Source of the DNA: an uncultured Rhodospirillales bacterium
GTDB lineage: Bacteria > Pseudomonadota > Alphaproteobacteria > Acetobacterales > Acetobacteraceae
NCBI GenBank assembly: GCA_903927465.1
Contig: CAIYMY010000168.1
Location: forward strand, 1-56,976
Direction: 5' to 3'
DNA: 56,976 nt
The notes under the pieces were generated by a model that saw only the letters and a program-made list of their open reading frames with translations, searched no databases and was not told the origin of the DNA. Below, one piece after another: positions 661-32,815 of this stretch (position 1 is the first letter of the stretch; the number at the start of each line of letters is the position of its first letter). The translations under genes and the position numbers were made by a program.

Positions 661-1260
661 GTGAAACAAACTCAGCTATTCCCTTCTGAGAAGACTCAAC
701 TTCCTCACGACGTAACGCTATTCTTTCGCCGCTGGCTTTCTAATCCTCTGCAGATGGGCTCCATAGTTCCGTCTTCTGCAAAGCTGGGGGAACTTATCGC
801 CAAGCAGATAGACAAAAATTCAAATTCGCTTGTCCTGGAATTGGGGGCCGGTACGGGTGCAATCACGCGCAGCCTGATCAAATCCGGCATCGCACCGGGG
901 CGCATTGCCATGGTGGAAATTGTGCCGGAAATGGCCGATCATTTGCAGACAAAATTTCCGGGCACAAAAGTACTACAAGCAGATGCCTTTAACTTACCGA
1001 AATCGCTATTGCAGAAGACCGGCCTGGAGGTTGGGACCGTAATTTGCGGTATCCCGCTTGTTCTGCTTGGCGAAGAAAAGCAGCGCCAGTTCATCCAACA
1101 GGTTGAAGCGGTAGCCCCCGGTCGTGGCTTCCTGCTTTACACCTATTGTATTACCTCCCCTTTGCCATACCACACCCTGAACCTTGAGGCACAAAGGCTT
1201 GCCTGGACGCCCAAGAATTTTCCCCCAGCTAGTGTCTGGCATTATCGACCAAAAACATAG
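661..1260 (+). CDS. pmtA: PmtA-like phospholipid N-methyltransferase
   Basis: A class I SAM-dependent methyltransferase of about 200 residues. The SAM-binding motif I reads LELGAGTGAITR, motif II gives VEIVP, and the N-terminal SNPLQMGSIVPSS segment is typical of the PmtA/rRNA-adenine-methylase-like group that methylates phosphatidylethanolamine to phosphatidylcholine at the inner membrane face. A TTG at 649 is in frame, but GAGG at 651-654 sits six bases before a GTG at 661, so I prefer GTG. It ends five bases from the convergent lipid-kinase gene, and lipid genes follow. This supports a membrane-lipid role. Substrate is inferred from family and context only. Confidence 0.72.
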   Translation: MKQTQLFPSEKTQLPHDVTLFFRRWLSNPLQMGSIVPSSAKLGELIAKQIDKNSNSLVLELGAGTGAITRSLIKSGIAPGRIAMVEIVPEMADHLQTKFPGTKVLQADAFNLPKSLLQKTGLEVGTVICGIPLVLLGEEKQRQFIQQVEAVAPGRGFLLYTYCITSPLPYHTLNLEAQRLAWTPKNFPPASVWHYRPKT

Positions 1261-1264
1261 GAAG

Positions 1265-2143
1265 TCATGGTACAACAACCCGTAGAGGTTGCATGAATGG
1301 CACAATATGGATCGGCAGAGACCCGGCGGCGTCACCATCTGCCTGAACAGGTAGATCCGCGCCAAAAACTTGGATATCATGGCCTCGCCGCAGTGAGATA
1401 CTGGAAAGGTACGGGAGCCTGCCGAGACTGAGTGCTGCGGCGTGTTTCATGGCATCAAGAAAGTGATCTTGATGAAGTGACAGAACGTGAAACTGTGTCT
1501 CACGTGGATCAGCTTCTGGTGCAATCTGGAAACGCCCAGCGTAGTACCGACCTTTGGTTACAACCAATCCAGACGTTTCGACCTCAACAGCGTCAATTTT
1601 TACCTTAAAGGATTGGAATGAATGCCGCGTCAAATCACATAACGTCTGCATCACATAAGCCCCCTTTCCGAATACTCGCTTCAGTCCCGGTGGTAGTCGA
1701 TGGACCACAACTGAATCGAGTCCTACGCCCACCATTTGGATGAAAAGACGGTCTGTAAGGTCGCCTCGCTTCAAGATGCCGGGATAGACGCTCGCGCTCC
1801 GGCCCATGAGAAGCGTGCGTGCGGCTTCCCGCGGATTAAGCGGTACCGACATTTCCAAAGCAAAGACATTTGCAGTACCAAGTGGAAGAATTCCAAGCAG
1901 CGCTTGGGTTCCTGCAAGACCAGCCGCCACTTCCGCTATCGTACCATCCCCTCCAGCCGCAACGACAATGCGCCCCTGATCAGCTGCCATGCGCGCAAAT
2001 TTTTCCGCATCGCCGCGTGCGCTGGTTTCCAGCAGCTGAAACTGAATGCCAAGACCGTAGAGAACATCAAGTGCTGAATACAGTTTAGCACGACGCCGGG
2101 CGCCCGCGGCTGGATTGAAAATAATGACTAGGTTCTGTGCCAT
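1265..2143 (-). CDS. diacylglycerol kinase-like lipid kinase (DagK/YegS family)
   Basis: The start MAQNLVIIFNPAAG carries the NPxxG element, and the catalytic glycine-rich loop is VVAAGGDGTIAEVA, followed by LPLGTANVFA. This is the DAGK catalytic domain order of the soluble DgkB/YegS family, about 293 residues. The enzyme phosphorylates diacylglycerol or a related lipid to phosphatidate. Upstream in-frame codons extend to 2209, but the NPAAG motif is expected about 10 residues from the start, so I chose the ATG at 2143. It is divergent from the plcP-like gene, with a PhoB-like site between. That fits recycling of the diacylglycerol a PlcP-type enzyme would release; the substrate is not shown by sequence. 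Confidence 0.78.
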   Translation of the reverse strand: MAQNLVIIFNPAAGARRRAKLYSALDVLYGLGIQFQLLETSARGDAEKFARMAADQGRIVVAAGGDGTIAEVAAGLAGTQALLGILPLGTANVFALEMSVPLNPREAARTLLMGRSASVYPGILKRGDLTDRLFIQMVGVGLDSVVVHRLPPGLKRVFGKGAYVMQTLCDLTRHSFQSFKVKIDAVEVETSGLVVTKGRYYAGRFQIAPEADPRETQFHVLSLHQDHFLDAMKHAAALSLGRLPYLSSISLRRGHDIQVFGADLPVQADGDAAGSLPIHIVPFMQPLRVVVP

Positions 2144-2224
2144 GACCCATGATTCAATCAAATGAAGATTTCTATTATGTGATAGTCCTAAGAATATTTT
2201 GTTAAGCATTACGCCAAAAGGAAA

Positions 2225-2342: not shown

Positions 2343-3170
2343 ATGAGCCTCGCTTCAGCGCCTCAAGTCTATCGATCAATTTTCCTCTCCGATATTCATC
2401 TCGGATTACGGAGCTGCCGCAGCGATTCATTGGTGGATTTTTTGCGCAGTGTTCAGTGCGAAAAACTCTATCTGGTTGGCGACATCATTGATGGCTGGCG
2501 CCTTCGACGATCCTGGTATTGGGACGCATATCATGATGAGGTCATTCGCCTGATCTTGAGGATGGCTCGCCACGGAACGGAAGTGATCTACGTTCCTGGG
2601 AATCACGATGAAATCTTTCGTGATTGGCTGGGTCTCGAAGTCGCCGGCGTCAAATTGTTGCGGGAAGCTGAACATATCGCAGCAGACGGGCGCCGCTTTC
2701 TTGTCATTCACGGCGATGAATTCGATGGTGTCATTCGTTATGCCAAATTCCTAGCTCATATGGGGGATTGGGCCTATGACGCTGCCCTTACGACCAATCG
2801 TTGGTTCAATTTTCTGCGTCGCCGGCTTGGCTATCCCTATTGGTCGCTTTCCCAATGGCTGAAGCGCCAGGTGAAGGAAGCGGTCAAGGCAATTGATCGT
2901 TTCGAAACAGCCCTTGCCCATGAAGCGAAATCGCGCGGTATGGATGGCGTCATTTGTGGTCACATTCACCATGCCGAAATGCGGATGGTTCATGGCATTC
3001 TTTACATGAATGACGGGGATTGGGTGGAAAGCTGTACCGCCCTGGTTGAGCATCAGGATGGCCGCTTTGAGCTGCTCGATTGGTCGCACCGCCAGGCCGT
3101 ATCAATGGACAAAACAACATCCACGCCTGCTCCCGATCTGGTAGCCGAGTTATTGCGCGGTGCAAGGTAA
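2343..3170 (+). CDS. plcP: PlcP-like metallophosphoesterase (phospholipase C type; LpxH superfamily)
   Basis: All calcineurin-type metal motifs are visible in order: FLSDIHLG near residue 15, VGDIIDGW near 46, PGNHDE near 85, HGDEFD near 124 and CGHIHHAEM near 203. The 275-residue length and motif spelling match the UDP-2,3-diacylglucosamine-hydrolase-like group that includes PlcP of rhizobia and marine alphaproteobacteria, which removes headgroups from phospholipids during phosphate starvation. A strong AGGAGG (2330-2335) precedes the ATG. The next gene is a GT4 glycosyltransferase overlapping its 3' end, which is the known plcP-agt arrangement. True LpxH is the alternative, but the glycosyltransferase partner and phn neighbours favour lipid remodelling. 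Confidence 0.75.
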   Translation: MSLASAPQVYRSIFLSDIHLGLRSCRSDSLVDFLRSVQCEKLYLVGDIIDGWRLRRSWYWDAYHDEVIRLILRMARHGTEVIYVPGNHDEIFRDWLGLEVAGVKLLREAEHIAADGRRFLVIHGDEFDGVIRYAKFLAHMGDWAYDAALTTNRWFNFLRRRLGYPYWSLSQWLKRQVKEAVKAIDRFETALAHEAKSRGMDGVICGHIHHAEMRMVHGILYMNDGDWVESCTALVEHQDGRFELLDWSHRQAVSMDKTTSTPAPDLVAELLRGAR

Positions 3171-3174
3171 AGCG

Positions 3175-4176
3175 ATGCGTATCCTGATTGTCTCAGATGC
3201 TTGGTTTCCCCAGGTCAATGGCGTTGTGCGTACGCTTTCGGTTGTCGTTGAAAAGTTACGGGCTGGTGGCGATACCGTTGAGGTTATCGGCCCTGATCGC
3301 TTTCGCAGTATGCCCACCCCCGGCTACGCTGAAATCCGGCTCGCGATCGCTCCCAAGCGCCGCCTGGCGCAGATTGTCACCGATTTCGAGCCAGAGATCA
3401 TCCATATTGCGACTGAAGGACCGCTTGGTTGGGCTATGCGCGCCCTTTGCCGACGCAACGCTTGGCCCTTCACAACTGCCTTTCACACGCGCTTTCCTGA
3501 ATATCTTGAAGCCAGAACACGCATTCCCGCCGATTGGTCCTGGCGCGTGATGCGACGCTTCCATGAGGCAGGCGCAGGTACCTTTGCAGCGACCGCGTCC
3601 TTAAGGCAGGAACTGACCCGGCGGGGCTTCACCAAGGTGCGTGCTTGGACACGCGGCGTTGATCTTGAAAGATTTCGCCCGGGCGAGGGTGACGCATGGC
3701 AGGGGCTGCCACGGCCCATTTTTCTTTATGCGGGGCGCGTCTCGATCGAAAAGAATATCGAGGCTTTTCTGGCGCTGGATTTGCCGGGTAGCAAGGTTGT
3801 GGTCGGTGATGGGCCCGCCTTGCCGGCGCTGAAGCAGCGATTTCCGCAGGTTACCTTCACGGGCTATCGCGATAATGGTTTGCTTGCCCGGTCCTATTCA
3901 GGGGCGGATGTCTTTGTGTTTCCGTCGCGAACAGACACTTTCGGGTTGGTTTTGCTCGAAGCGCTGGCTGCGGGCACGCCCGTTGCCGCCTTCCCGGTCA
4001 CAGGGCCGATTGACGTCATCACCGATCCTCGTGTTGGCGCTTTGAACGAAGACCTCCGCGCTGCTTGCCTCAAGGCGCTTGAATGTGATCGCGCGGCGTG
4101 CCGTCTTCATGCAGAAGCCTGGTCCTGGGACGCTTGTGTTGCGCAATTCAGGGCGGCGCTGGTGCCTATTCGATAA
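3175..4176 (+). CDS. GT4 glycosyltransferase, probable diacylglycerol glycosyltransferase (Agt-like)
   Basis: A GT-B fold family 4 enzyme of about 333 residues. The N-terminal Rossmann half begins MRILIVSDAWFPQVNGVVRT, and the sugar-nucleotide half carries FVFPSRTDTFGLVLLEALAAG, with the Glu of the EX7E motif. It resembles SqdX, MgtA and other GT4 lipid glycosyltransferases. An ATG at 3160 is in frame inside the end of plcP, but the ATG at 3175 gives the family-typical N-terminus. Coupled to plcP, it would put a sugar on the diacylglycerol released there, making a phosphorus-free membrane lipid. The sugar donated cannot be read from sequence. Confidence 0.72.
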   Translation: MRILIVSDAWFPQVNGVVRTLSVVVEKLRAGGDTVEVIGPDRFRSMPTPGYAEIRLAIAPKRRLAQIVTDFEPEIIHIATEGPLGWAMRALCRRNAWPFTTAFHTRFPEYLEARTRIPADWSWRVMRRFHEAGAGTFAATASLRQELTRRGFTKVRAWTRGVDLERFRPGEGDAWQGLPRPIFLYAGRVSIEKNIEAFLALDLPGSKVVVGDGPALPALKQRFPQVTFTGYRDNGLLARSYSGADVFVFPSRTDTFGLVLLEALAAGTPVAAFPVTGPIDVITDPRVGALNEDLRAACLKALECDRAACRLHAEAWSWDACVAQFRAALVPIR

Positions 4177-4187
4177 AAGCCCCTTCC

Positions 4188-4227
4188 CTGTCATCATTCT
4201 TTCATTGATCCGTCACGCATCCATCAT
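4188..4227 (+). promoter_or_regulatory. PhoB box array, four tandem half-sites upstream of phnD
   Basis: Four half-sites at an exact 11-bp period: CTGTCAT (4188), CTTTCAT (4199), CCGTCAC (4210) and CCATCAT (4221), each followed by four spacer bases. The first is a perfect CTGTCAY match and the others are 5-6 of 7. The array ends 43 bases before the phnD start codon, where it would replace a -35 element. It predicts phosphate-starvation induction of phnD-phnE1-phnE2. Confidence 0.8.
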
Positions 4228-4270: not shown

Positions 4271-5182
4271 ATGCTTGGCCGTCGAACTGCCCTAATGCTG
4301 CCGGGTCTAGCAATCTTACCGCTGCATGCCCGGGCGCAAGCTGATTGGCGCCAACAGCTCCGCGAAGTGCGCTTCGGCATGATCTCGGTTGAGAATGAGC
4401 GCGACGCCGTGGCGCGCCTGCAAGGTCTTCAGGCCTATATGGCGCGTGAATTGCGCTCCCCTTTCCGTGTATTCCGCGGGTCTGACTATGCAGCGGTGGT
4501 GGAGGCGCTGCGCGCTGGTCATTCCGAATTGGCCTATCTCGGCCCGGCTTCCTACGGGCTTGCGCGGCGTGTCATGGGGGAACGTATCACCCCCATATTC
4601 CGCTATATTGATAATGAAGGTATGGAAGGCTACCACAGCGTCATGATTGTGCGGACGGATAGCCCGATCCGGACTCTTGAGGATATGCGCGGCAAGACGC
4701 TCGGGTTCAGCGACCCCAATAGTACATCCGGCTTCCAGGTACCTGGCTGGTTTCTGCGTCGCCAGGGAATGGACCCGGCAAGCTACTTCTCCCGCACAGG
4801 CTTTACTGGAAGTCATGAGCAAGGCGTCATGACTGTAATCAATGGTACATTTGATGCTGCTGTGCTTTCCTATTCAAATGAACGCCGCAATACATTCCAG
4901 CGCATGGCAGAAAAAGGCATGATCCCGGAAGGCGCTGTTCGTGTCATCTGGAAATCCCCGCTTATTCCGAATGCGCCCATTGTGATGCGCACGGATTTGC
5001 CGGAAAGCTTCCGGCAGGAGGCGATTGCCGCTTTTGCCGCCATGCCGCAGCGCGATCCACAAGCCTTTCGCGACATGACATCTGATGCCCGTGGCCTGGC
5101 GCCCGCCAAGCACGAGGATTACCTGGATATCGTCGCCATCCTTGAGGATAATGCCGCGCGTCGGCGGGAACGGCGGTCCTGA
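4271..5182 (+). CDS. phnD: PhnD-like phosphonate/phosphate ABC transporter substrate-binding protein
   Basis: A 303-residue periplasmic protein with an N-terminal leader (MLGRRTALMLPG then LHARAQA). The mature part shows PhnD features: LAYLGPASY near residue 95, the DSPIRTLEDMRGKTLGFSDP segment, then STSGFQVP, which form the phosphonate/phosphate pocket in this family. It binds phosphonate, phosphite or phosphate and delivers it to the PhnE permeases encoded directly downstream. GAGAGAGG lies just before the ATG. Preceded by a four-site PhoB box. Ligand preference cannot be told from sequence. Confidence 0.88.
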   Translation: MLGRRTALMLPGLAILPLHARAQADWRQQLREVRFGMISVENERDAVARLQGLQAYMARELRSPFRVFRGSDYAAVVEALRAGHSELAYLGPASYGLARRVMGERITPIFRYIDNEGMEGYHSVMIVRTDSPIRTLEDMRGKTLGFSDPNSTSGFQVPGWFLRRQGMDPASYFSRTGFTGSHEQGVMTVINGTFDAAVLSYSNERRNTFQRMAEKGMIPEGAVRVIWKSPLIPNAPIVMRTDLPESFRQEAIAAFAAMPQRDPQAFRDMTSDARGLAPAKHEDYLDIVAILEDNAARRRERRS

Positions 5183-6036
5183 CCGATTCTCCCGCTGTTC
5201 TTGCGGCAGAAGCGCGGTGGCGTGAGGCGCAAGGGCCTCGACAGCGCACGTGGTTCCTGACTGCATCGTTGCTTGCCATCGCGATTGCGGCCTCCGCCTG
5301 GATTGGGGAGGTCAGTATCGCGAGGCTGGTGCGCGGCCTCCCGCTTGCGGCTGATTACATTGCCGGCACCCTACCGCGGCTGCGCCTGGATCATTTCTTG
5401 GCGGATCTTGCCTATTGGATGTGGGGTTTTGCGGATTGGGCGCTGCTGCTCGCCGATACGCTGCTGATTGCCTATGTTGGGACAGTATTAGGTGGATTGG
5501 TGGCGCTTCTGCTTTCTTTTCCGGCTGCCACGACGCTTGCTCCGCCATGGATCGTCACGATCATACGCCGCGCTTTGGAATTGATGCGGACAGTGCCAAC
5601 ACTCGTCCTCGCGCTCATCTTTGTTTATGCCTTTGGGCTTGGCGCCTTCGCCGGCATGCTTGCCATAGCAGTCCATACGGCGGGCTCGCTTGGCAAGCTG
5701 TTTGCCGAAGAACATGAAAACGCGTCTCTGACCCAGATGGAGGCTGTGCGCGCCGCCGGCGGCACTTGGGCTGCCCAGATGCGCTTTGGTATTTTTCCGC
5801 AGTCCCTGCCAGGTGTCTTGAGCTATGGCCTGCTGCGTTTTGAGATCAATGTACGCGAAGCGAGTGTCCTTGGCATCGTCGGCGCTGGCGGGATTGGTGA
5901 AGAACTTTATCTGGCAGTCCGCCAATTCGAATATCAGGATATTTCAGCGATCCTTGTCCTTATTCTTGTGACCGTCACGGCAATTGACCTTCTTTGCGGG
6001 CGCTTGCGCCGTAGTATTCTTGGGGCAGCGATATGA
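5179..6036 (+). CDS. phnE1: PhnE-like phosphonate ABC transporter permease 1
   Basis: Binding-protein-dependent inner-membrane permease with about six hydrophobic segments and the cytoplasmic EAA loop (EAVRAAGGTWAAQMRFGIFPQ), ending in the family signature ASVLGIVGAGGIGEEL. There is no ATG, GTG or TTG giving a normal N-terminus. A TTG at 5269 would start inside the first membrane helix. The frame is open back to a CTG at 5179 whose last two bases overlap the phnD stop (CTGA) and gives an N-terminus beginning TDSPAVLAAEARWREAQ, typical of PhnE cytoplasmic leaders. I propose CTG initiation coupled to phnD. It overlaps phnE2 by four bases. Confidence 0.82.
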   Translation: MTDSPAVLAAEARWREAQGPRQRTWFLTASLLAIAIAASAWIGEVSIARLVRGLPLAADYIAGTLPRLRLDHFLADLAYWMWGFADWALLLADTLLIAYVGTVLGGLVALLLSFPAATTLAPPWIVTIIRRALELMRTVPTLVLALIFVYAFGLGAFAGMLAIAVHTAGSLGKLFAEEHENASLTQMEAVRAAGGTWAAQMRFGIFPQSLPGVLSYGLLRFEINVREASVLGIVGAGGIGEELYLAVRQFEYQDISAILVLILVTVTAIDLLCGRLRRSILGAAI

Positions 6037-6806
6037 CAAAGCTGCGCCTGACCACGCCGCTGCTTTTCACGCTTCTATTCCTGCTGTTGCTGGGCGGACT
6101 TTGGCGTATGGATGCATCGTCAGATCGCATCCTCAACGGCATCATGAAGCTCGGTTGGTTGGTAGCGTTGATGTGGCCGCCTTCGGCTGGTGGCGTATTG
6201 CCGGAATTGCTGGTCAGCCTGATGGAAAGCCTCGCCATGGCGTTTCTTGGAACGCTTTTGGCGGCGCTTGTAGCGCTTCCCCTGGCATTGCTTGGGGCTG
6301 GCAATATTGTCGGCAATATCTTCCTGCGCTTTTCCGTAAGGCGCATTTACGATGGTCTGCGCGGGATAGATACGCTGATCTGGGCGCTTATCTTTGTCTC
6401 GGCGGTCGGCATGGGACCCTTTGCCGGCATTCTGGCACTTGCTGTCCCAGATATCGGCGTGCTGTCCAAGCTTTTCAGTGAGGCCTTGGAATCGGCGGAT
6501 AAACGTCAGGTTGAGGCAGTGCGTGCGGCAGGTGCCAATCGGGTTTTAGCTGTCAGAATTGGATTGATCCCGCAGGTAGCACCCATCATGCTCTCGCAAA
6601 TCCTCTATACCTTGGAATCGAATGCGCGGTCCTCAACGGTGCTTGGCATTGTTGGCGCCGGTGGCATTGGTTTGGCGTTATCAGACCGAATTCGTATCAA
6701 TAATTGGGATGAAGTGGCCTTCATCGTTCTACTTATTCTGGTGATGGTGGCGGCCATTGATTTGGGTAGCCGCAAGCTCCGCATGAAGATCATTCGCGCA
6801 GCCTGA
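6033..6806 (+). CDS. phnE2: PhnE-like phosphonate ABC transporter permease 2
   Basis: A second PhnE-type permease of 257 residues, beginning at an ATG that overlaps the phnE1 stop (ATGA). It has an N-terminal helix (LTTPLLFTLLFLLLLGGLW), the EAA loop EAVRAAGANRVLAVRIGLIPQ near residue 162 and the closing SSTVLGIVGAGGIGLALS. With PhnE1 it would form the heterodimeric channel for PhnD-delivered substrate. The two permeases are clear paralogues. No phnC ATPase gene follows: 12 bases after the stop comes the end of a convergent permease gene, so the ATPase must be encoded elsewhere or borrowed. Confidence 0.87.
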   Translation: MTKLRLTTPLLFTLLFLLLLGGLWRMDASSDRILNGIMKLGWLVALMWPPSAGGVLPELLVSLMESLAMAFLGTLLAALVALPLALLGAGNIVGNIFLRFSVRRIYDGLRGIDTLIWALIFVSAVGMGPFAGILALAVPDIGVLSKLFSEALESADKRQVEAVRAAGANRVLAVRIGLIPQVAPIMLSQILYTLESNARSSTVLGIVGAGGIGLALSDRIRINNWDEVAFIVLLILVMVAAIDLGSRKLRMKIIRAA

Positions 6807-6818: not shown

Positions 6819-8516
6819 CTAGCGGCGCCAGGCGGATGTGAAGCGCGCGAATAGACCGCCCACCACGAGCTGCATGAGCTTTGCCGATAGGGAAATAGCC
6901 ATGATGACACAGGCCATGGCGGCTGCAGCACTTGCTTGGCCTGCTTCATCCATATGAACAACTGCGACCGAAGCAGGCTTCGTATCCGGCCCATAGAGAA
7001 AAATCACCGCGCTGACAGTCGTCATGGCGCTGACGAAAAGAAACACCAGTATTTCGAATATGGCAGGCAGGCAGATCGGCAAGGTAACGCGGCCAAAGGT
7101 CTGCCAGATTGGCACATGCAGGCTGGCGCTCACGGCTTCGAATTCAGGATCGAGCTGCCTGATCGCCGTGACGGCCGTAAGATGCCCGACAGTATAAAAA
7201 TGGATGATCGAATTCAGCACTAAGATAGCCAGCGTACCATAAATGATGCCGAACGGATTTGCCGGGTGGTTGAAGAAGATAATGAAGGCAAGGCCAAGCA
7301 CCAGCCCTGGTACCGCCAGGGGAATCGTCGCCAGCAAGCGAAGCAGCACAGCCAGAAAACCCCTCTGGGGTCCGCGTTCAAGGCTATAGGCGATGATGAA
7401 GATAAGCGCTGCCCCCACGAAGGCCGTGATAAGACTCAGCTTGACCGAAAGCCAAACGGCCTGCCACCCCGCAGTATCGAAACGCGCGAAATCGTAATTG
7501 TCGAGCGTCAGGGAAAGATTATAGGGCCAGAACCGAATGAAGGATCCCCATACGGCCACAGCAACAATCACCATCAAGGCTAAGGCCACGGAAAGGCAGA
7601 ACAGGAAGGCAGGTAGGTCGCGTCTAAGGCGTGGCTTTGGACGATAAGCCACCGCCCGCCCTGATAATGTGGCGGTTCTTTTGCCATGCGCCCAACGATC
7701 AAGAAGAAAGGCAAGAATGGCTGGCAGCAGAAGCACAAGACCAACCACCGCCCCCATATTCAAATCCTGGCGTCCCACGACTTGCTTATAGACATCCGTT
7801 GCAAGCACGTTGAATTGCCCGCCAATGACTTTCGGAATGCCGAAATCCGTTACAACCAGCGTGAACACCACAACACTTGCGGAAACCAAACCATATAGAG
7901 CGCCCGGCAAGGTCACGGTCAGGAAAATCCGGAATCGGGAAGCCTTCAGCGCCTCCGCCGCTTCATACAGGCGGCCATCAGCAGTGGATAAGGCGACAGA
8001 CAGAAGGATGGCAGCCGCCGGGAAGCAGTAGAAAATCTGCGCGCCGATGATACCCCAGGGGCCATAGATGCTGCCCCCATCCATCATCCAACGCAGCATG
8101 CCCTGATTGCCGAAAAGGTAGATCAGCGACAAGGCCGGCAGCAATGATGGCGCCAAAATCGGCAAGAACATGATGGCGCGAAAAATCCATTTGCCCGGCA
8201 TGCAACTTCGCGTCAGGCCATAGGCGTAAGCGAAAGCAAGTGGGATAACCACGCAGGTGGTGATGAAAGCTGTCCAGACCGAATTCCAGGCCGACCGCAC
8301 CAGGCTTGGCGTGGTTACATAAATTGCAAAATTGCGTAGGCCCACAAAACTGCCGTGCTGGTCTTCAAAGGCGCGCAGCAGAAGGCTTGCCAAGGGCAGC
8401 GCCAGCGCAAGGCTTAGGAACAGAAAACCCAGCGCCTGGATGATGCGGAGCGATATCTCATCCGATGATGCCTTAGGGCGGATTACGCCGGACTGCGCCA
8501 AAAAGGGCTTACCCAT
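6819..8516 (-). CDS. 2-aminoethylphosphonate ABC transporter, fused double permease (PhnU/V type)
   Basis: A 565-residue inner-membrane protein with two consecutive permease domains, each about six helices. The first EAA-type loop is EAAEALKASRFRIFLTVTLP near residue 180; the second is EFEAVSASLHVPIWQTFGRV near residue 465. This two-domain layout is that of the putative 2-aminoethylphosphonate permeases and of iron/thiamine permeases such as ThiP and FbpB. The assignment to aminoethylphosphonate rests on the PhnS-like binding protein, the ATPase and phnX on the same strand. It overlaps the ATPase gene by eight bases. It ends 12 bases from phnE2, convergently. Confidence 0.8.
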   Translation of the reverse strand: MGKPFLAQSGVIRPKASSDEISLRIIQALGFLFLSLALALPLASLLLRAFEDQHGSFVGLRNFAIYVTTPSLVRSAWNSVWTAFITTCVVIPLAFAYAYGLTRSCMPGKWIFRAIMFLPILAPSLLPALSLIYLFGNQGMLRWMMDGGSIYGPWGIIGAQIFYCFPAAAILLSVALSTADGRLYEAAEALKASRFRIFLTVTLPGALYGLVSASVVVFTLVVTDFGIPKVIGGQFNVLATDVYKQVVGRQDLNMGAVVGLVLLLPAILAFLLDRWAHGKRTATLSGRAVAYRPKPRLRRDLPAFLFCLSVALALMVIVAVAVWGSFIRFWPYNLSLTLDNYDFARFDTAGWQAVWLSVKLSLITAFVGAALIFIIAYSLERGPQRGFLAVLLRLLATIPLAVPGLVLGLAFIIFFNHPANPFGIIYGTLAILVLNSIIHFYTVGHLTAVTAIRQLDPEFEAVSASLHVPIWQTFGRVTLPICLPAIFEILVFLFVSAMTTVSAVIFLYGPDTKPASVAVVHMDEAGQASAAAAMACVIMAISLSAKLMQLVVGGLFARFTSAWRR

Positions 8517-9639: not shown

Positions 9640-9641
9640 GC

Positions 9642-10698: not shown

Positions 10699-10738
10699 GC
10701 GACGGAATCATGACATATAAATGACAATTCCGTGTCAA
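10699..10738 (-). promoter_or_regulatory. PhoB box array upstream of the aminoethylphosphonate transporter
   Basis: On the minus strand four half-sites at an 11-bp period: TTGACAC (10738-10732), TTGTCAT (10727-10721), ATGTCAT (10716-10710) and CCGTCGC (10705-10699). The central pair TTGTCAT-TTAT-ATGTCAT matches the consensus 6/7 and 6/7. The array ends 43 bases before the binding-protein start codon, the same offset as in the phnD promoter. Its upstream edge overlaps the phnX stop codon, so the transporter can be transcribed separately from phnX. Confidence 0.8.
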
Positions 10739-14289: not shown

Positions 14290-14325
14290 TACTGTCGAGC
14301 CCCTGTGCAAAGAGACCGTTTTGAT

Positions 14326-14354
14326 ACCACTGGACTATGACAGGCGGACGACCG
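14326..14354 (-). promoter_or_regulatory. candidate PhoB box upstream of the phytase-like gene
   Basis: Minus-strand CGGTCGT (14354-14348), spacer CCGC, CTGTCAT (14343-14337), spacer AGTC, CAGTGGT (14332-14326). The middle half-site is a perfect match; the flanking ones match 5/7 and 4/7. It ends 36 bases before the start codon (47 from the perfect half-site), similar to the strong boxes. Confidence 0.5.
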
Positions 14355-14497
14355 AATGATTGCAGCGCGATGAAAGCAATGATGGAACCTACAGACCCGT
14401 GATGTTCCCAGCCTCTCGATGCGCACAATGCGCTTTTTTGTAGATGACGATATTTGCTCGCTTCGCGAATAGGGCTAGCTGACGCGGCTTCTTCAAA

Positions 14498-14526: not shown

Positions 14527-14572
14527 CTTGGGCGCATATCCAACGCAGCGTCGTCAAACGGGGTGTTGCGGC

Positions 14573-18755: not shown

Positions 18756-18779
18756 ACCCTGCCAATTCGGAGAGAAGCC

Positions 18780-20894: not shown

Positions 20895-21179
20895 CCGTAA
20901 TACTGGATGTTTCTTCAGCTGGGACAGGATTTGAACAAATACATGCTCTTCCTCAAATCCTGATCCCCCATTTTGTTCAACCAAAACAAAGACGACCAAC
21001 GCGATCCAGGAACGAAGCGAACATCCTCAGTATGTTTTCGTTCCCGTTGAGCCGATGCATGTAGGGCAACTCCTGAACAGGCGGCAACATCACAAACCTA
21101 CCGCGCAAATGTAACTTTAGTGAAATATTGGCGCTTTAGAAACCGAGTTTCGTATTTCTCAGTCATTCGAGGCTCTGGC

Positions 21180-24385: not shown

Positions 24386-24389
24386 TGTC

Positions 24390-25964: not shown

Positions 25965-25967
25965 CTT

Positions 25968-27572
25968 ATGCTGATCTCTCGCCGTGCCGCCTTGCTGGCA
26001 CCTGGTCTTCTTGCGGCACCTGCGCTGGCGCAGGCGGATAATCGCCCCGTCTTGACCATCGCCGTCCAGCGGCTTTCGAATTCAAATACATTTGAACCAC
26101 CGCGCGAACAATCCAATGTTGGCTTTAGGATTCACGGGCTTTATTCGGAACAATTGATTGGCACGGATTGGCTCAGTAATGCAGCCTTGGTGCCTGGATT
26201 GGCCACATCTTGGAAGCGCGTGGATGCGCGCACGCTCGACCTTACCTTGCGGCAGAATGTCAAGTTCCACGATGGCAGTCTGCTGACAGCCGAGGATGTG
26301 GTCTTTTCCTTCAAAGAACGTCTTTTCGGCACGCAAGGCGCGACTGGCGCTGGGCGCAGCACGGTGCTGACTGGGACCGCCACGAAGGAACCGCCCGCAG
26401 AAGTTGTTGCCGTTGGCCGGCGCACCTATCCAGCGCTTGAGCGGATCGAGATCCTGGATCAGCAGACCATTCGCTTTGTCAATCGGCTTCCCGATGTGAC
26501 CTTGGAAGGACGCATCGCCCAGAGTGTAGGCGCTATCTTTTCTCGCGCTGCCTTTGGGCGGTCCGAAAGCTGGCTCTCTTGGGGGCGCACGCCTATCGGC
26601 ACTGGCCCTTATCGTATCGCGGAATTCCGCCCAGATACGCTTCTGGTTCTTGAAGCGCATGATGAATATTGGGGCGGCCGCCCACCTGCACGGCGCCTGC
26701 GCTTCGTTGAAGTGCCGGAAGTCTCCGGACGACTCAACGGGCTTTTCTCAGGTGAATATGATTTTGCCTGTGATGTGCCGCCAGATCAGATCACGGTGGT
26801 GGAACGCAATCCGCGTTTCGAGGTTTTGGGAAGCCCCATCAACAATATCCGCAAACTCGCTTTCGACAAGACGCATCCCGTTCTTGCTGATGCGCGCATC
26901 CGCCGCGCCATGACGCATGCCATAGACCGGCAAGTTCTGGTGGAGGCGCTTTGGGCAGGCCGCACCAAAATCCCGCGCGGCATGCAAATGGAAAGCTATG
27001 GGGAGATGTATCTGGCGGATTGGGAGAACCCCCGCTTTGACCCTGCCGAGGTCCGCCGACTGCTGCGTGAAGCCAATTATCGGGGCCAACCCATCCCCTA
27101 TCGCTTGCTCAATAACTACTACACCAATCAGGTCGCCAATGCGCAGATTATGGTTGAGATGTGGCGCAGTGTCGGCATCAATGTTGCAATCGAAATGAAG
27201 GAAAACTTCGCTCAGGTGACGGAACGCACGCCTGGTCGCGGTGTGCGCGATTGGTCCAATACATCAGTCTTTGGCGATCCTGTGGCGGGGCTTCTCCGCA
27301 GCTTTGGCCCCAATACCGAGGCTGAGCGCAATGGTGAATGGGCGAGTGGCGAATTCAATCAAGCCTCAACCGCGCTGGAGGCTGAAACCGACCTGAACCG
27401 CCGGCGTGAACTGTTCCGCCGCGTGCTCACTATCGTTGAACGTGAAGACCCCGGCTACATCACGCTGCACCATGCGGCGGCCTTTACCGCCAAGCGGCGC
27501 AATATCGAATGGCGCGCTTCTTCCGGCTGGGCGATGATGTTTGGCCCTGGCAATTTGCGTGTTGGCGCGTGA
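25968..27572 (+). CDS. family 5 ABC substrate-binding protein C (Dpp-like), third of three paralogues
   Basis: A 534-residue paralogue starting three bases after protein B ends. The leader is MLISRRAALLAPGLLAAPALA. Shared blocks are NRPVLTIAVQRLSNSNTFE, REQSNVGFR, FHDGSLLTAEDVVFSF, GTGPYRIAEFRPDTL and RRAMTHAIDRQVLVEALW. It looks closer to A than to B in loop length. Its stop codon overlaps the ATG of the ATPase gene (TGATG), so all three binding proteins are translationally linked to a single transporter core. The repeated triplication with preserved full length suggests selection, not decay. Confidence 0.8.
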   Translation: MLISRRAALLAPGLLAAPALAQADNRPVLTIAVQRLSNSNTFEPPREQSNVGFRIHGLYSEQLIGTDWLSNAALVPGLATSWKRVDARTLDLTLRQNVKFHDGSLLTAEDVVFSFKERLFGTQGATGAGRSTVLTGTATKEPPAEVVAVGRRTYPALERIEILDQQTIRFVNRLPDVTLEGRIAQSVGAIFSRAAFGRSESWLSWGRTPIGTGPYRIAEFRPDTLLVLEAHDEYWGGRPPARRLRFVEVPEVSGRLNGLFSGEYDFACDVPPDQITVVERNPRFEVLGSPINNIRKLAFDKTHPVLADARIRRAMTHAIDRQVLVEALWAGRTKIPRGMQMESYGEMYLADWENPRFDPAEVRRLLREANYRGQPIPYRLLNNYYTNQVANAQIMVEMWRSVGINVAIEMKENFAQVTERTPGRGVRDWSNTSVFGDPVAGLLRSFGPNTEAERNGEWASGEFNQASTALEAETDLNRRRELFRRVLTIVEREDPGYITLHHAAAFTAKRRNIEWRASSGWAMMFGPGNLRVGA

Positions 27573-28549
27573 TGCCGCTGGTCAGCCTCACCGGGCTTTC
27601 GGTTGCTTTTGACGGAGCGCCTGCCCTGCGTGGCATCGACCTTTCGGTCGCCAAGGGTGAAGCGGTTGGGCTTGTCGGCGAAAGCGGCTGCGGCAAATCG
27701 GTCACATGGCTGGCGGCGCTTGGCCTGCTGCCACCCAAGGCGCGCATCACTGGCAGCGTCATGCTGGAAGGGCAGGAATTGATCGGTGCGCCGGCGTCCA
27801 TACTTGAAAAAGTGCGTGGCGGGCGCATCGCGATGATCTTCCAAGACCCGGCAAGTAGCCTCAATCCCGTACACAGGATCGGGAAGCAGATCACGGAAGC
27901 ACTCGCGTTGCACAGGAAGATGGTGGGGCAAGCTGCTCGCAGCGAAGCCAAGCGGCTGCTTGATCTTGTTGGCATCCCAGATGCCACGCGGCGCTTGGAT
28001 GCCTATCCGCATGAATTGTCAGGCGGCCAGAATCAACGTGTCATGATTGCCATCGCACTTGCTGGGCAACCTGAATTGCTGGTGGCGGATGAACCGACCA
28101 CGGCGCTTGATGTGACGATCCAGGCGCAGATTCTTGAGCTTTTGAAAGACCTGCGGCGCCATATGGGGATGACCTTGGTGCTGATCAGTCATGATCTGGG
28201 CGTTGTGGCTGATTCTTGCGAACGTGTCGCGGTCATGTATGCCGGGCGCATTGTGGAAGAAGCACCGATCAGCCGGCTATTCTCGGCTGCCGCCCATCCC
28301 TACACACAAGGCTTGCTAGGCGCTTTGCCGCCAATGGATGGCCCGCGGCGGCGGCTTGCAGCAATACCTGGCGGTGTTCCAGAACCCTGGGCCATGCCGC
28401 CAGGCTGCGCCTTCGCCCCACGCTGCGCGCACCGGGTGGCGGCGTGTGATGCGGGCGTACCAGGATTGATACCCCTTGCCGCAAGTCACCGCGTTGCCTG
28501 CTTACAGGTGGCGCAAATGCCCATACCGCGTGAAAGCGTGCCAGCATGA
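27572..28549 (+). CDS. ABC transporter ATP-binding protein (DppD/OppD-like)
   Basis: A 325-residue OppD-type ATPase. Walker A is [19 protein letters not shown] near residue 38, the Q-loop is [11 protein letters not shown], the signature [16 protein letters not shown] carries an Asn in place of the usual Gln/Lys, and Walker B is [12 protein letters not shown]. The C-terminal region ends with the OppD/DppD-type cysteine segment [16 protein letters not shown]. The ATG at 27572 overlaps the stop of the upstream gene; in-frame codons further up lie within protein C. It forms the ATPase heterodimer with the following gene. Confidence 0.88.
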
Positions 28550-29556
28550 AACCCGGGGGCGCTCTACTGGAAGCGGAAGGCTTGGTTCGCCGTTATGCGA
28601 TGCGTCGAGGCATTATGGGCCGCGCAGTGGAAGTCCGCGCCGTGGATGGCGTTTCGCTGAAATTGGAACGTGGACGCACCCTGGGCCTGGTCGGTGAATC
28701 GGGATGTGGGAAATCCACCACCGGTCGCCTGGTGCTCGGCATGGAAACGCCTGATGCGGGGCGTGTCAGCTTTGAAGGCGCCACCATGCCGCAACCGGGC
28801 AGCGCGGCTTGGCGGAAGCTGCGCGCGCGCATGCAGATGGTTTTCCAAGACCCCTTGGGGGCTTTGGATCGCCGACTCCCCATCGCAACGCAAGTCGCTG
28901 AACCGCTTGACATCCACAATATCGGTGCGGTTTCCGAACGTGCTGCCAGGGTGGAAGCGCTGCTGCGCGCTGTGGGCCTTCGGCCAGATCAAGGCGCGCT
29001 GTACCCTCATGAGCTTTCAGGCGGTCAACGCCAGCGCGCAGTGCTTGCGCGTGCTCTGGCGACTGATCCCGCCTTGCTGGTGTGTGATGAACCGATCAGC
29101 GCGCTTGATGTTTCCATCCAGGCGCAGGTGATGAATCTTCTACTGGATCTGCAGGAGCAGTTCGGCACGTCCATGCTTTTCGTGAGCCACGATCTGCGCG
29201 CCGTTCGGCAAGTGAGCCATCGTGTCGCCGTCATGTATTTGGGCCGCATCGTGGAAGAAGGAGAACCCGATGCGGTGCTGCACGATCCGGCGCATCCATA
29301 TACACGCGCCTTGGTATCCGCCATTCCGCATCCGGGACGCATGGGGCAGCGCATGGTGCTGCAGGGCGACCCACCCAACCCTGCCGACCGGCCATCCGGT
29401 TGCGCCTTTCATCCCCGTTGCCCTGTAGCGAATAGCCTTTGTGCACGTGAAGCGCCGGTATTGAAGCCCCGTGCGGATGGGCGGCTTATCGCTTGCCATG
29501 TCGCGCATGGGGAAGTCGCCGCGGGACACGGCTTCACGGGTCAGGAGGCCGCCTGA
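28546..29556 (+). CDS. ABC transporter ATP-binding protein (DppF/OppF-like)
   Basis: A 336-residue OppF-type ATPase beginning at an ATG that overlaps the DppD-like stop. Walker A is [18 protein letters not shown] near residue 49, the signature is LSGGQRQRAVLARALA, Walker B is LLVCDEPISALDVSIQAQV, and the C-terminal cysteine segment is GCAFHPRCPVANSLC. The N-terminal RRYAMRRGIMGRAVEVRAVDGV is the OppF-type extension in which substrate is called. Partner of the preceding ATPase. Confidence 0.88.
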   Translation: MKPGGALLEAEGLVRRYAMRRGIMGRAVEVRAVDGVSLKLERGRTLGLVGESGCGKSTTGRLVLGMETPDAGRVSFEGATMPQPGSAAWRKLRARMQMVFQDPLGALDRRLPIATQVAEPLDIHNIGAVSERAARVEALLRAVGLRPDQGALYPHELSGGQRQRAVLARALATDPALLVCDEPISALDVSIQAQVMNLLLDLQEQFGTSMLFVSHDLRAVRQVSHRVAVMYLGRIVEEGEPDAVLHDPAHPYTRALVSAIPHPGRMGQRMVLQGDPPNPADRPSGCAFHPRCPVANSLCAREAPVLKPRADGRLIACHVAHGEVAAGHGFTGQEAA

Positions 29557-30489
29557 ATGCTTCGCTTCATTGCATCACGCTTGGCGCGCGCTGCGCTCAC
29601 CATCGCCATGGTGGTCACCTTCGCTTTCATTGTGCTGCGCCTTTCCGGTGATCCTGCGCAGATCATCATGGGTGCGGATGCGCCCCCTGAAGCGGTTGAT
29701 GCCTTTCGTACCGCCTGGGGGTTGGATGAACCGATTTGGGTTCAGTATTTCTCCTATTTCTGGGCCATTTTGCAGGGCGATCTGGGCCGGTCCATGCGCG
29801 ATGGGCGTGATGCCATTGTGTTGGTCACTGAACGCATTCCAGCCACGCTTGCGCTGACCTTGCCGGCACTGGCCATCAAGATATGCCTTGGCATACCGGC
29901 GGGCATTTATGCCGCGCTGCATCGCAATTCACTTGCCGATCGCGTTGTCATGATCATCGCCGTGGCAGGCTTCACAGTACCTTCCTTTGTGCTTGGCTTG
30001 CTGCTTGTTCTTTTATTTGCAGTTCAGCTTGGCTGGCTTCCATCTGGCGGGCAGGAAAGTTGGCGCCACGGCATTCTGCCGGTGATTACGCTTGGGCTTG
30101 GCGGTGCCGCCGTATTGGCGCGCTTTACGCGCAGCGCCATGCTGGAAGTCCTTGGGCAACCCTTTATCCGGACAGCGAGTGCCAAGGGCGTGCCCTGGCA
30201 CGCCGTTGTCACCGGCCATGCGCTACCGAATGCCGCAATCCCTACTGTAACCATCATCGGCTTCATGGTTGGCTCGCTGATAGCCGGTGCTGTGGTGGTT
30301 GAAAGCGTCTTTTCCTGGCCAGGTGTCGGAAGGCTTCTTGTGGTCGCCGTCGCCAACCGTGATCTCGCTGTTGTGCAATGCATTCTTTTGCTGGTGGCTA
30401 TCACCATGGTCTGCGCAAATCTGATCGTTGACTTGCTTTATGGACTGCTAGACCCGCGGCTTCGCGCTGCGCCAGGAAAGGCTGCCTGA
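29557..30489 (+). CDS. ABC transporter permease (DppB/OppB-like)
   Basis: A 310-residue inner-membrane permease starting at the base after the previous stop. The first helix is AALTIAMVVTFAFIVLRLSGDPA, with the OppB-specific GDP motif. VFSWPGVGRLLVVAVANRD near residue 252 is the conserved OppB/DppB signature, and YGLLDPRLR closes the protein. It has about six helices. It pairs with the DppC-like permease downstream. Confidence 0.88.
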   Translation: MLRFIASRLARAALTIAMVVTFAFIVLRLSGDPAQIIMGADAPPEAVDAFRTAWGLDEPIWVQYFSYFWAILQGDLGRSMRDGRDAIVLVTERIPATLALTLPALAIKICLGIPAGIYAALHRNSLADRVVMIIAVAGFTVPSFVLGLLLVLLFAVQLGWLPSGGQESWRHGILPVITLGLGGAAVLARFTRSAMLEVLGQPFIRTASAKGVPWHAVVTGHALPNAAIPTVTIIGFMVGSLIAGAVVVESVFSWPGVGRLLVVAVANRDLAVVQCILLLVAITMVCANLIVDLLYGLLDPRLRAAPGKAA

Positions 30490-30490
30490 T

Positions 30491-31369
30491 ATGCCTGAAG
30501 CGCCTCTTGTCCTGGCTGCATCCACGGCGCCCCCCAAGCGGCGCCGCGCGGCAGCGCCGGCCCTGGTCATTTTTGGCATGGCCTGGTTGATGCTGATGCT
30601 GGCGGTGGCCGTGCTTGCCGATGTGATTGCCCCTTACGCCTATACCGCACTTGATTTGCGCAACCGGCTTTCACCGCCCATTCTATTCGGGGGGACATGG
30701 ATTCACCCGCTTGGGACTGATGAATTGGGGCGGGATGTGCTATCCCGACTGATCTACTCCATCCGTACAAGCCTGCTGATTGCCTTCGGTGCCACCATCA
30801 TTGGGGCGGCGGTCGGGACCTCGCTGGGATTTCTTGCCGCGCATTTCCGTGGCTTGGTTGAGCAGGCCGTTTTGGCGCTGGTGGATTTTTCTGCATCCTT
30901 GCCCTTCCTGATTCTAGCCCTCGCGGTGCTGGCCTTCTTCGGCAATTCCCTTGGACTACTGGTCTGCCTTTTGGGCTTACATGCCTGGGAACGCTATGCG
31001 CGGATTGCGCGTGGACTTGCCTTGGCTGCTGGTGCGCAGGGCTATGCCGCTGCGGTGCGCGGGCTTGGTGCTTCGCCCTGGCGGATTTATGGGCGGCATG
31101 TGCTACCCAATATTGCCTCCACCTTGATTGTCTCCATGACGCTCGCCTTTCCTGAGGTCATCTTGCTCGAGTCAGGCCTGTCCTTCCTTGGCTTGGGTGT
31201 GCAGCCGCCAGAAACCTCGCTCGGTTCAATGGTCGGTTATGGGCGGGAGTATCTGACCCGTGCGCCCTGGATTCTTCTCACGCCCGCCAGTGTCATTGTC
31301 CTGACAACGCTGTCTGTTTCGTTGATTGGTGATTGGCTGCGTGATGGTCTTGACCCAACGCTGAGGTAG
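30491..31369 (+). CDS. ABC transporter permease (DppC/OppC-like)
   Basis: A 292-residue permease starting two bases after the DppB-like stop. It shows HPLGTDELGRDVLSRLIYSIRTSL near residue 73 (the OppC amphipathic signature), FLGLGVQPPETSLGSMVGYGREYL near 230 and the terminal GDWLRDGLDPTLR. Its cytoplasmic N-terminus is proline/arginine rich. Last gene of the 10-kb plus-strand operon that starts with the phosphonate monoester hydrolase. It ends 22 bases from the convergent NPP-type gene. Confidence 0.88.
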   Translation: MPEAPLVLAASTAPPKRRRAAAPALVIFGMAWLMLMLAVAVLADVIAPYAYTALDLRNRLSPPILFGGTWIHPLGTDELGRDVLSRLIYSIRTSLLIAFGATIIGAAVGTSLGFLAAHFRGLVEQAVLALVDFSASLPFLILALAVLAFFGNSLGLLVCLLGLHAWERYARIARGLALAAGAQGYAAAVRGLGASPWRIYGRHVLPNIASTLIVSMTLAFPEVILLESGLSFLGLGVQPPETSLGSMVGYGREYLTRAPWILLTPASVIVLTTLSVSLIGDWLRDGLDPTLR

Positions 31370-31390
31370 CATCGCGCCAAGCCTTATCCT

Positions 31391-32815
31391 TTAAGATGCG
31401 CGACGCAGTGCGGTTGGGTAAAGGCGACCAGTTGGGCCGCGCATCGCTTCAAGCACGAAGCCGCGCGGCATTTCATGCAGTTCTGCCACCGCCGTGAAAT
31501 CTGCCGAATGGTCAAAGGCGCCGCGCAATGGGCGCCCTTCCATCCCTGTAGTTTCAATGCCGAGCATGTGCAGGATTGTGGGGACGATATCCGTCAGATC
31601 GGCGGGTTCTTCCGCCACTGCGCCATGGCGAAAAGCGCCACCTTGCATCACAAGAACGGTCGCGAGTTCAGCGCGATGCAACCCACCATGCATGCCGCCG
31701 CCTTCTGGCACATCAGGCGCGTCAAAGGGCGCGGTACCCGGAAGGCCCCATTCATCCGGCCCTTCATCGCCGGCGAAAGTCGCCACCAAATCGGCGCTTC
31801 GTGCATGTGCACTGCCCAAAAGTGCTAGAGGTATGGCCTCACCCGCTGCCAAGATTGAAGGGTCCCTCGCCAAGACCGGCCCTGCCCAAGCTTGGGATGC
31901 CAGGAAGCTGGCCACTTGCGATGCCATGGCGCGGTCCTTCAGCCATATGCCAGGTGCCGCTGCGGGCGCGACCACCACATCAACATCCGGCCCCATGCCA
32001 GTGCCAGCACGGAAGCCCGCACGCTGCAGTTCTGTGCGCAAACAAAGCTTCCCTCTGCCGGTGACATGGCCATGGTCAGATAGGACAATAATGGAAATCT
32101 CCTTCGCATCAGGCTGAGCGTCTCGCCATGCGATTATCCGGCCAAGCACCGCATCCGCCGCAAGAAGAGCACGCTGCGTATGTTCGGCCCGCAATCCGCC
32201 CCAATGGAAGGAAACGTCAGGTTCGGACAACCAAAGCAGCGCAACATCCGGCTTTATCTGAGGCAGTACGTAATCGAGCAGCACGCGCCCGGCGAATTCA
32301 ACCCGCGCTATATTCGGTACCTCTGCGGGCGGCGTTGCGCCGATGGCTTCACGCACGCGGCGCGCAGTTTCGCCTTCGGTATCTTCAACATTCCAACGAA
32401 ACGCACCAAGGCGTTCTGCCGCCGGGTGAAGTAGCCGCGCTGCCCCCGCCGTGCCGGCGCTGACAAGCGCAAAGCTCAGGCCATGCGGCGCAAGGCGTTC
32501 TGCCAAGCTGGCGCGTTGCAATGGCGATTCGGCACCGGCCGCGAGCAGAAGCACATCCTCAACCAGTTTTGTCCTGAGCAGACGATCAGGCGCCACCGAC
32601 GCATCAAATAGCGTATTGGCGACAAGCCCATGTCCGCCAGGGCGACAGCCTGTGATCAGCGATGGCGTGGCCACCCGGGTTTCTGACGGGAAAATGCTTC
32701 GGGCGTGGCCGAAGCGCGTTCCGTTGGCGGAAAGCGCAAATAGGTGCGGCGTTGCAATGGCGTCGACCATATCCGGCCGTAGCCCATCCAGCGCCACCAT
32801 GATGAAGCGTGTCAT
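31391..32815 (-). CDS. nucleotide pyrophosphatase/phosphodiesterase (NPP-type, alkaline phosphatase superfamily)
   Basis: A 474-residue protein without a signal peptide. Metal Asp10 is in MVALDGLRPDM. The nucleophile region IFPSETRVATPSLITGCRP has Thr46 at the position of the NPP nucleophile, unlike the Cys of the nearby phosphonate monoester hydrolase. Distal metal residues are in IIVLSDHGHVTGRG and GGMHGGLHR. NPP enzymes cleave phosphodiesters and nucleotide pyrophosphates. Most characterised NPPs are exported; this one seems cytoplasmic, which fits an import-then-hydrolyse role beside the Dpp-like transporter. A TTG at 32830 is in frame; the ATG at 32815 fits better. Confidence 0.8.
   Translation of the reverse strand: MTRFIMVALDGLRPDMVDAIATPHLFALSANGTRFGHARSIFPSETRVATPSLITGCRPGGHGLVANTLFDASVAPDRLLRTKLVEDVLLLAAGAESPLQRASLAERLAPHGLSFALVSAGTAGAARLLHPAAERLGAFRWNVEDTEGETARRVREAIGATPPAEVPNIARVEFAGRVLLDYVLPQIKPDVALLWLSEPDVSFHWGGLRAEHTQRALLAADAVLGRIIAWRDAQPDAKEISIIVLSDHGHVTGRGKLCLRTELQRAGFRAGTGMGPDVDVVVAPAAAPGIWLKDRAMASQVASFLASQAWAGPVLARDPSILAAGEAIPLALLGSAHARSADLVATFAGDEGPDEWGLPGTAPFDAPDVPEGGGMHGGLHRAELATVLVMQGGAFRHGAVAEEPADLTDIVPTILHMLGIETTGMEGRPLRGAFDHSADFTAVAELHEMPRGFVLEAMRGPTGRLYPTALRRAS

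Follow-up and report, generated by a model that had tools for sequence, protein, structure and literature searches.

The window studied here, a stretch of 56,976 nucleotides that is one entire contig (CAIYMY010000168.1) of the draft genome of an uncultured Rhodospirillales bacterium of the Acetobacteraceae (assembly GCA_903927465.1, 3.78 Mb in 220 contigs), carries between positions 649 and 32,815 a block of 28 genes, all assignable through Pfam and NCBIfam profiles to lipid turnover or to the uptake and cleavage of organophosphorus compounds. The block consists of two linked modules, A and B, each also found apart from the other, and it is probably a modular genomic island for phosphorus scavenging under scarce phosphate. 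This reading draws on the gene families, their linkage, the joint presence or absence of the markers of module A, the Pho-box-like sites of that module, and the AccA-type phosphate pocket seen by sequence in module B. The parts are already known; the new points are their assembly and, within module B, the unit formed by PehA, a predicted phosphonate monoester hydrolase, and an importer whose binding proteins are relatives of AccA.

Module A follows the order pmtA-dgk-plcP-gt4-phnD-phnE-phnE, facing phnU2T2S2-phnX-FAD enzyme-phytase-like gene, and module B comprises ugp-mpp2 (GpdQ-like), npp and importer-pehA:

661–1260, + strand: PmtA/OlsG-like phospholipid N-methyltransferase (Methyltransf_25; NF045881 113 bits, cut-off 250)
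1265–2209, − strand: lipid kinase of YegS/DAGK type (dgk), divergent from plcP (DAGK_cat 3.9e-25)
2343–3170, + strand: PlcP-like metallophosphoesterase (Metallophos_2; DxH, GNHD and GHxH motifs)
3160–4176, + strand: GT4 glycosyltransferase, Agt-like by position only (Glyco_transf_4, Glycos_transf_1; adjoins plcP in relatives)
4271–6806, + strand: phnD-phnE-phnE importer without adjacent phnC (TIGR03431; TIGR01097 twice)
6819–10655, − strand: phnU2-phnT2-phnS2, importer of the aminoethylphosphonate (AEP) type (TIGR03262, TIGR03265, TIGR03261)
10735–11559, − strand: phnX, phosphonoacetaldehyde hydrolase (TIGR01422 316 bits, cut-off 220)
11556–12671, − strand: FAD oxidoreductase of the PbfB/C/D kind (TIGR03364 417 bits, cut-off 285)
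12904–14310, − strand: phytase-like esterase (phyt; PF13449 1.3e-56), its N-terminus resembling a signal peptide by eye
14528–20060, + strand: Ugp-like importer with ATPase, two permeases and two binding proteins, all below the Ugp cut-offs
20064–20894, + strand: GpdQ-like metallophosphoesterase, mpp2 (PF00149; GpdQ fold matches)
21120–22739, + strand: PehA, predicted formylglycine-type phosphodiester/phosphonate monoester hydrolase (NF045661 979 bits, cut-off 900)
22766–27572, + strand: three AccA-type (SBP_bac_5) binding proteins (best PDB match AccA for all three)
27509–31369, + strand: importer ATPases and permeases, dppDFBC-like (Opp/Dpp/Nik families, below all listed cut-offs)
31391–32815, − strand: NPP-type phosphodiesterase/pyrophosphatase-like protein (PF01663 1e-24)

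An earlier reading of the letters alone (the original prediction) had seen here a single contiguous phosphorus-starvation island, and by Pfam and NCBIfam profile matches every subsystem that it named lies where it was placed, with no unrelated gene in the scans of the block from 649 to 32,815. The contiguity therefore holds, and what had to be amended is that the block is two modules, also found separately, that PhnDEE has no PhnC adjacent, and that the Ugp-like importer, itself present, includes two UgpB-like proteins and comes with a GpdQ-like metallophosphoesterase.

The enzyme activities, the substrates and the induction at low phosphate that these families suggest would fit together as follows. 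In module A, PlcP would strip phosphate from the cell's own phospholipids, yielding diacylglycerol, and the GT4 enzyme would replace the lipid head with a sugar; PhnDEE, with a borrowed ATPase, would import phosphonates, and the AEP-type importer would feed the FAD oxidase, giving phosphonoacetaldehyde which PhnX would then split. In module B, intact phosphodiesters would be imported and cut inside the cell, the Ugp-like importer working with the GpdQ-like esterase, and the AccA-type importer, through its three binding proteins, working with PehA, aided by the NPP-like esterase; PehA and the GpdQ-like enzyme would presumably both lie in the cytoplasm.

The linkage was followed in 35 congeneric genomes, all of them drafts, of which G000 is that of the window. 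The search for the same gene order in relatives, which the original prediction had proposed, finds module A in this order on one contig in 8 of the 35 (G000, G007, G014, G019, G023, G027, G033 and G034), pmtA not being seen in the module of G007; in G023 the contig stops past the FAD enzyme gene, and some 2 kb are inserted between gt4 and phnD. In three more genomes (G012, G022 and G008) the module appears in contig-broken form; G008, 78% complete, has plcP, phnX and pehA, and phnDEE or a close phnE was not found in it. Since the combination recurs in congeners, the objection that its homologues would always be scattered in relatives falls away.

In a tree of rpoB from 32 genomes (G022 and G027, which gave no rpoB match, and G030, with a fragment only, being omitted), the module-A carriers with rpoB fall in one subclade of 17 genomes (SH-aLRT 100; completeness 77–100%). 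All 17 of its genomes are concordant for plcP and phnX, 9 having both and 8 neither, and these 8 are also without a close phnE (best matches ≤52%); the two markers show 6 changes on the tree, and in all 4 supported independent pairs the two differ the same way. Outside the subclade, 16 further genomes of the genus carry plcP. In these the matching phnE is either missing or on a contig other than that of plcP, and in the eight whose plcP surroundings were examined (G001, G003, G004, G013, G018, G020, G028 and G032) dgk-plcP-gt4 is found in 8/8 and phnDEE in 0/8. The linkage exceeds chance, in that the order of module A recurs elsewhere and plcP and phnX agree throughout the subclade.

The two modules share a contig in 6 of the 35 genomes (G000, G022, G023, G027, G033 and G034), pehA being truncated at the contig end in G027. 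The gene order across them is not fixed: in the five genomes other than G000 module B lies on the opposite side of A, the pmtA side, its pehA end being the closer one in four of them and its ugp end in G034. In G000 module B stands between the phytase-like gene and a tRNA-Ser, and in G022 the phytase-like gene itself adjoins tRNA-Ser and gst; in G023 and G033 the two modules are separated by a further phn operon that is unlike the first. G033 also carries module A twice, on separate contigs (L120 and L100), by duplication or admixture, and with 3% contamination in that genome the second copy may be an admixed contig. Single links also recur outside the island: the pehA-importer genes adjoin hpnW-phnX-phnS2T2U2 in three genomes (G003, G018 and G028), G003 carrying phnDEE as well at a greater distance; in G001 some 7 kb separate ugp from dgk-plcP; and, among the loci from named relatives, L082 and L093 have plcP and a GT4 gene no more than 10 kb from pehA, and in L087 the importer has ugp genes next to it. 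With G022 and G027 added to the subclade, the resulting 19 genomes comprise 9 with both modules, 2 with A only, 2 with B only and 6 with neither, when G026, which has the importer and ugp genes and no pehA match, is counted as having module B.

The regulation of the block was approached through the Pho box, which we take to be CTGTCAT-N4-CTGTCAT. Bases 1–33,100 hold 11 sites with at least 11 of 14 matches, where 1.9 would be expected (from 30 simulations, none of which exceeded 5), and 5 sites with at least 12, against 0.23 expected; the rest of the window holds 3 against 1.2 and 0 against 0.1, respectively. Shuffled half-site motifs reached either count in 0 of 300 cases, and 8 of the 11 sites fall in 2.2 kb of intergenic DNA, a count for which some gene starts were trimmed to those of the orthologues. 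The sites upstream of plcP, phnD, phnS2 and phyt are these:

2225–2242, + strand: weak Pho-box-like site upstream of plcP (matrix scores 10.1–14.4)
4188–4216, + strand: overlapping Pho-box-like repeats upstream of phnD (13/14 and 11/14 matches)
10699–10738, − strand: Pho-box-like repeats upstream of phnS2 (matrix scores 15.5, 17.7 and 9.7)
14326–14376, − strand: Pho-box-like repeat cluster upstream of phyt (9/9 orthologous rows with at least 11/14)

At the same threshold of at least 11/14, phnD has a site in 10 of 14 orthologous rows and phnS2 in 9 of 19, all nine from module-A genomes. Trained on phnD, phnS2 and phyt of relatives, a matrix finds the weaker plcP site in 12/12 module-A rows at a fixed distance (−33) from dgk. 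Elsewhere the sites are merely scattered (pmtA 3/11 rows, ugpC 3/10, pehA 2/10 and npp 2/12), and the importer (sbp5a) has one in 0/9 rows; a candidate box for npp at 32,809 was discarded, as it sits at the start of the long reading frame, is oriented away from npp and lacks conservation. Conserved upstream repeats would accordingly place module A, and not module B, in a Pho regulon: because the sites are conserved only at module A, the indication of a common control extends only to the left half of the block, and the repeats suggest that this half is under the control of PhoB. The ugp operon of G000 starts back to back with the box cluster of the phytase-like gene and may be under the same control.

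It is possible, if rather less than probable, that the block consists of two separate neighbours, a PhoB-controlled module A and a module B oriented to carbon or nitrogen, that is, to the catabolism of sugar phosphates, glycerophosphodiesters and nucleotide diesters, module B then being no phosphate-starvation system. The restriction of the conserved sites to A fits such a case, as do the genomes with B but not A or A but not B, the many pehA-importer loci without plcP or phnX in the flanks examined, and the fact that AccA itself serves nutrition and signalling (PMC4526662). Nevertheless, two mere neighbours would hardly be expected on one contig in six genomes and in more than one arrangement, nor would the single links recur outside the island, and all of module B fits the handling of phosphate esters; these points favour the reading of the block as one modular phosphorus-scavenging island.

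As to the PehA-importer unit of module B, PehA is known for promiscuity, and we know of no settled natural substrate for it. The protein of the window matches the PDB entries 2w8s and 2vqr at 904.5 and 889.5 bits and contains the catalytic Cys motif C73-G-P-A-R, in agreement with the formylglycine motif, presumably C-x-P/A-x-R; it is, above the curated equivalog cut-off of NF045661, a predicted member of the phosphonate monoester hydrolase family. That score and the catalytic Cys motif are what it shares with the described enzymes (2w8s, 2vqr; PMC5066984), from which it differs in being tied to a dedicated importer; the available parts of PMC12421950 and PMC5066984 name no natural substrate for these hydrolases.

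The original prediction called this importer Dpp-like, and its permeases and ATPases do fall in the Opp/Dpp/Nik families; that it is an ordinary oligopeptide system unrelated to PehA has, however, very little probability. The two ATPases and two permeases are all below the Dpp equivalog cut-offs, the two binding proteins scanned against Dpp/Opp models gave no match at 1e-40, and AccA is the best solved relative of all three binding proteins (E 1e-73 to 1e-78), the next distinct protein after AccA standing at 3e-31 for the first of them, and DppA at 8e-26. In AccA, four residues (Asn54, Tyr375, Tyr376 and Ser419) hold the phosphate, and a fifth, Asn284, the sugar hydroxyl (PMC4526662); by alignment, with a numbering offset of 28 derived from the printed alignment, which all named residues fit except Glu504, these five residues are kept in 3/3 binding proteins of the window, in 52/52 orthologues from the named loci, and in 6/6 from other families, one of these sequences being truncated. 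All five occur together in 0/29 other SBP_bac_5 rows of the same genome, rows which represent 26 of the 27 non-island loci examined (the genome has 39 other matches), some of them neighbours or overlaps, and which stand at 24–30% identity, where single columns may be misaligned. The label "Dpp-like" was therefore dropped, with AccA as closest solved relative and its pocket residues kept, and the importer stands with three binding proteins carrying a putative AccA-type phosphate pocket.

The acc importer itself (AccA, AccF; PMC4526662, PMC7356202) brings in a phosphodiester which is then cleaved inside the cell, and the likeness to it lies in the AccA-type binding protein and its five pocket residues. 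Here, in contrast, the sugar anchor Glu510 and the gate Trp178/Trp423 are lost (Phe/Phe/Trp; Tyr/Thr/Ser; Pro/Ser/Val), there are up to three binding proteins, PehA stands where AccF does, and the block has no regulator. With the anchor and the gate tryptophans replaced, the system is AccA-like, and not an importer of agrocinopine.

The pairing of pehA with this importer also argues against a peptide system, since it extends across families and in both gene orders. In the named loci (Roseomonas, Neoroseomonas, Pseudoroseomonas, Roseococcus and metagenome-assembled genomes), pehA is directly followed by an AccA-type gene in 34 of 38; the four exceptions are L063 and L099, cut by contig ends, L089, which has none, and L098, with a more distant one upstream. 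PehA matches at 1e-100 occur in 64 of 385 genomes of the class, and the surroundings of 20 of these hits were examined. At 61–66% identity the importer is near in 6 of 10, in both orders and in families f145, f95, f87 and f135 (three genomes), which makes five families counting f1; the other four are without it, one having a contig end just past pehA. At 44–51% identity a distant version of the importer is present in only 1 of 10, so the pairing belongs to this branch of PehA. Separately, in another family, a PehA-family gene (47%) lies within about 3 kb of phnS2-T2-U2-like genes (L258, 2491–7963). A partial literature search brought up, by title or start of abstract, neither the PehA/AccA-type pairing nor this island. 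The chances are about even that the importer linked to pehA represents a branch of the AccA family that is widespread and not devoted to opines, and that it brings an undescribed class of phosphodiesters, recognized by the phosphate end in the AccA pocket and with a head other than that of agrocinopine, to a cytoplasmic PehA.

Another account of the block looks to its edges, which carry the following:

77–412, + strand: transposase fragment of IS481/IS3 type at the left edge of the contig (NF033577 66 bits, model positions 216–284 only)
33603–33695, − strand: tRNA-Ser(GCT), where similarity to relatives starts in the comparison with gst loci

To the right of the block come this tRNA and then unrelated genes (GST, lytic transglycosylase, superoxide dismutase); further on, at 50687–50761, lies a small RNA of the suhB/mmgR family (RF00519, 48.4 bits). 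That the genes were gathered neutrally by mobile elements at a recombination hot spot beside tRNA-Ser, in which case their linkage would say nothing of joint function, seems unlikely. In its favour, the match to the window starts at the 3′ end of the tRNA (33,599–33,603) in 9 of 11 gst loci, and a piece of 54 bases (32951–33004) matches beside tRNA-Ser(GGA) in G031 and in G017, so that the region from 32951 to 33603 looks like such a hot spot; besides the transposase fragment, module A of G019 has next to its phytase-like gene a tyrosine integrase with arm-binding domain (L105, 4983–6131), with no match in the other stretches searched; and G+C is lower in the block (module A 0.569, ugp 0.547, pehA to npp 0.59) than to its right (0.618), the value being 0.60 over 161 kb taken from further loci of the same genome, some of which overlap. 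However, the block is without unrelated cargo, and module A has the same order in other carriers, where gst lies on a different contig. The idea of an integrated element flanked by paired attachment sites was rejected, since none of the 13-base pieces around the tRNA end has a second copy in the window, and there is no integrase among the open reading frames scanned for gene families, up to 44,447.

Turning to the parts of module A as members of a scavenging island, PlcP with a glycosyltransferase replaces phospholipids under phosphorus shortage in the PlcP-Agt loci of marine heterotrophs and Agrobacterium (PMC4796936), to which the present genes compare in having a PlcP-like gene adjoining a glycosyltransferase and a Pho-box-like site. 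The likeness is one of family and adjacency. The site is weak here, and the genes differ in being joined to phosphonate and phosphodiester modules and in the addition of the lipid kinase and the PmtA-like enzyme. A DAGK-type kinase stands divergent beside plcP in every examined locus showing plcP.

As regards the phosphonate genes, the two PhnE copies are above the cut-off (248 and 265 bits against 217), and PhnD, at 255.5 bits, is slightly below its equivalog cut-off of 261.1 and above that of the subfamily TIGR01098 (216 against 112). Within 4 kb of phnD there is no PhnC-like ATPase in any of the 14 orthologous loci, of which two are cut by contig ends. The ATPase at 4.4–4.8 kb is PhnT2, and a PhnC-like gene at 4.5–4.8 kb in G033 and G034 (51% and 46%) belongs, by the order of the hits, to another phn operon; PhnC above the cut-off is present on two other contigs of the genome (C157 and C72), which suggests that PhnDEE borrows its ATPase from elsewhere. 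PhnU2 (735 bits against 593) and PhnS2 (415 against 393) exceed their cut-offs, and PhnT2 falls slightly short (454.4 against 457.7). The FAD enzyme gave no match at 1e-5 to PDB sequences; its family TIGR03364 is mentioned once in the available part of PMC10590968, and enzymes of the PbfB/C/D type together with PhnX free phosphate from N-methyl-AEP and AEP (PMC10590968, PMC10574752). The window resembles this route in having a TIGR03364-type enzyme beside phnX, and differs in the importer alongside and in a PhnW-like gene on another contig. The latter gene, on C4, above the cut-off of NF010006 and below those of TIGR02326 and TIGR03301, weakens the idea that the FAD enzyme replaces PhnW.

In module B, the Ugp-like proteins score too low for membership of the glycerol-3-phosphate importer (UgpA 121 bits against 335, UgpB 46 and 50 against 411, UgpE 129 against 297, UgpC 352 against 432). 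The three top fold matches of mpp2 are GpdQ glycerophosphodiesterase, for a predicted model of mean pLDDT 64, a modest confidence that makes "GpdQ-like" a lead, and mpp2 has no match at 1e-3 among PDB sequences. The NPP-like protein matches NPP of the PDB at 3e-11 across its first ~84 residues.

Several observations weigh against the reading of the whole block as one phosphorus-scavenging island. Some concern regulation: (i) no regulator gene lies in the block; (ii) no conserved Pho box exists among orthologous rows at ugp, pehA, the importer or npp, so that the single co-regulated block of the original prediction is not supported, and what survives of its starvation island is the gene content, the recurrence in congeners and the sites at module A; (iii) even there, 0/20 plcP rows reach 11/14, phnS2 and pmtA do so in only 9/19 and 3/11, and the rows, coming from close relatives, are not independent. 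Others concern the statistics: four pairs in a sign test cannot reach significance (p 0.125), and the association of A with B is only moderate (Fisher p 0.024, ignoring kinship), with 0 to 2 of 4 independent pairs concordant, 0 discordant and the others undecided. Finally, as to function, the lipid kinase beside plcP would reconvert the diacylglycerol of PlcP to phosphatidate, AEP can be taken up as a source of nitrogen and by a route insensitive to phosphate (PMC8316502), and the PmtA, Ugp and Dpp/Opp scores are all far below the curated cut-offs, so these labels hold at the level of family only.

In marine cyanobacteria, phosphorus islands are variable clusters of phosphorus genes, an idea that the present island shares; it differs from them in gene set and host, and in including a module for membrane lipids. 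In roseomonad bacteria, membrane recycling, the use of phosphonates and the use of phosphodiesters would in this way be linked in one unit. More useful still than the linkage of the modules would be the tie between PehA and an importer of its own whose phosphate pocket can be read from the sequence, since through the binding proteins the substrate of PehA can be sought; if the proposed role of this importer is true, the PehA family would gain a class of natural substrates and become an enzyme of phosphorus acquisition.

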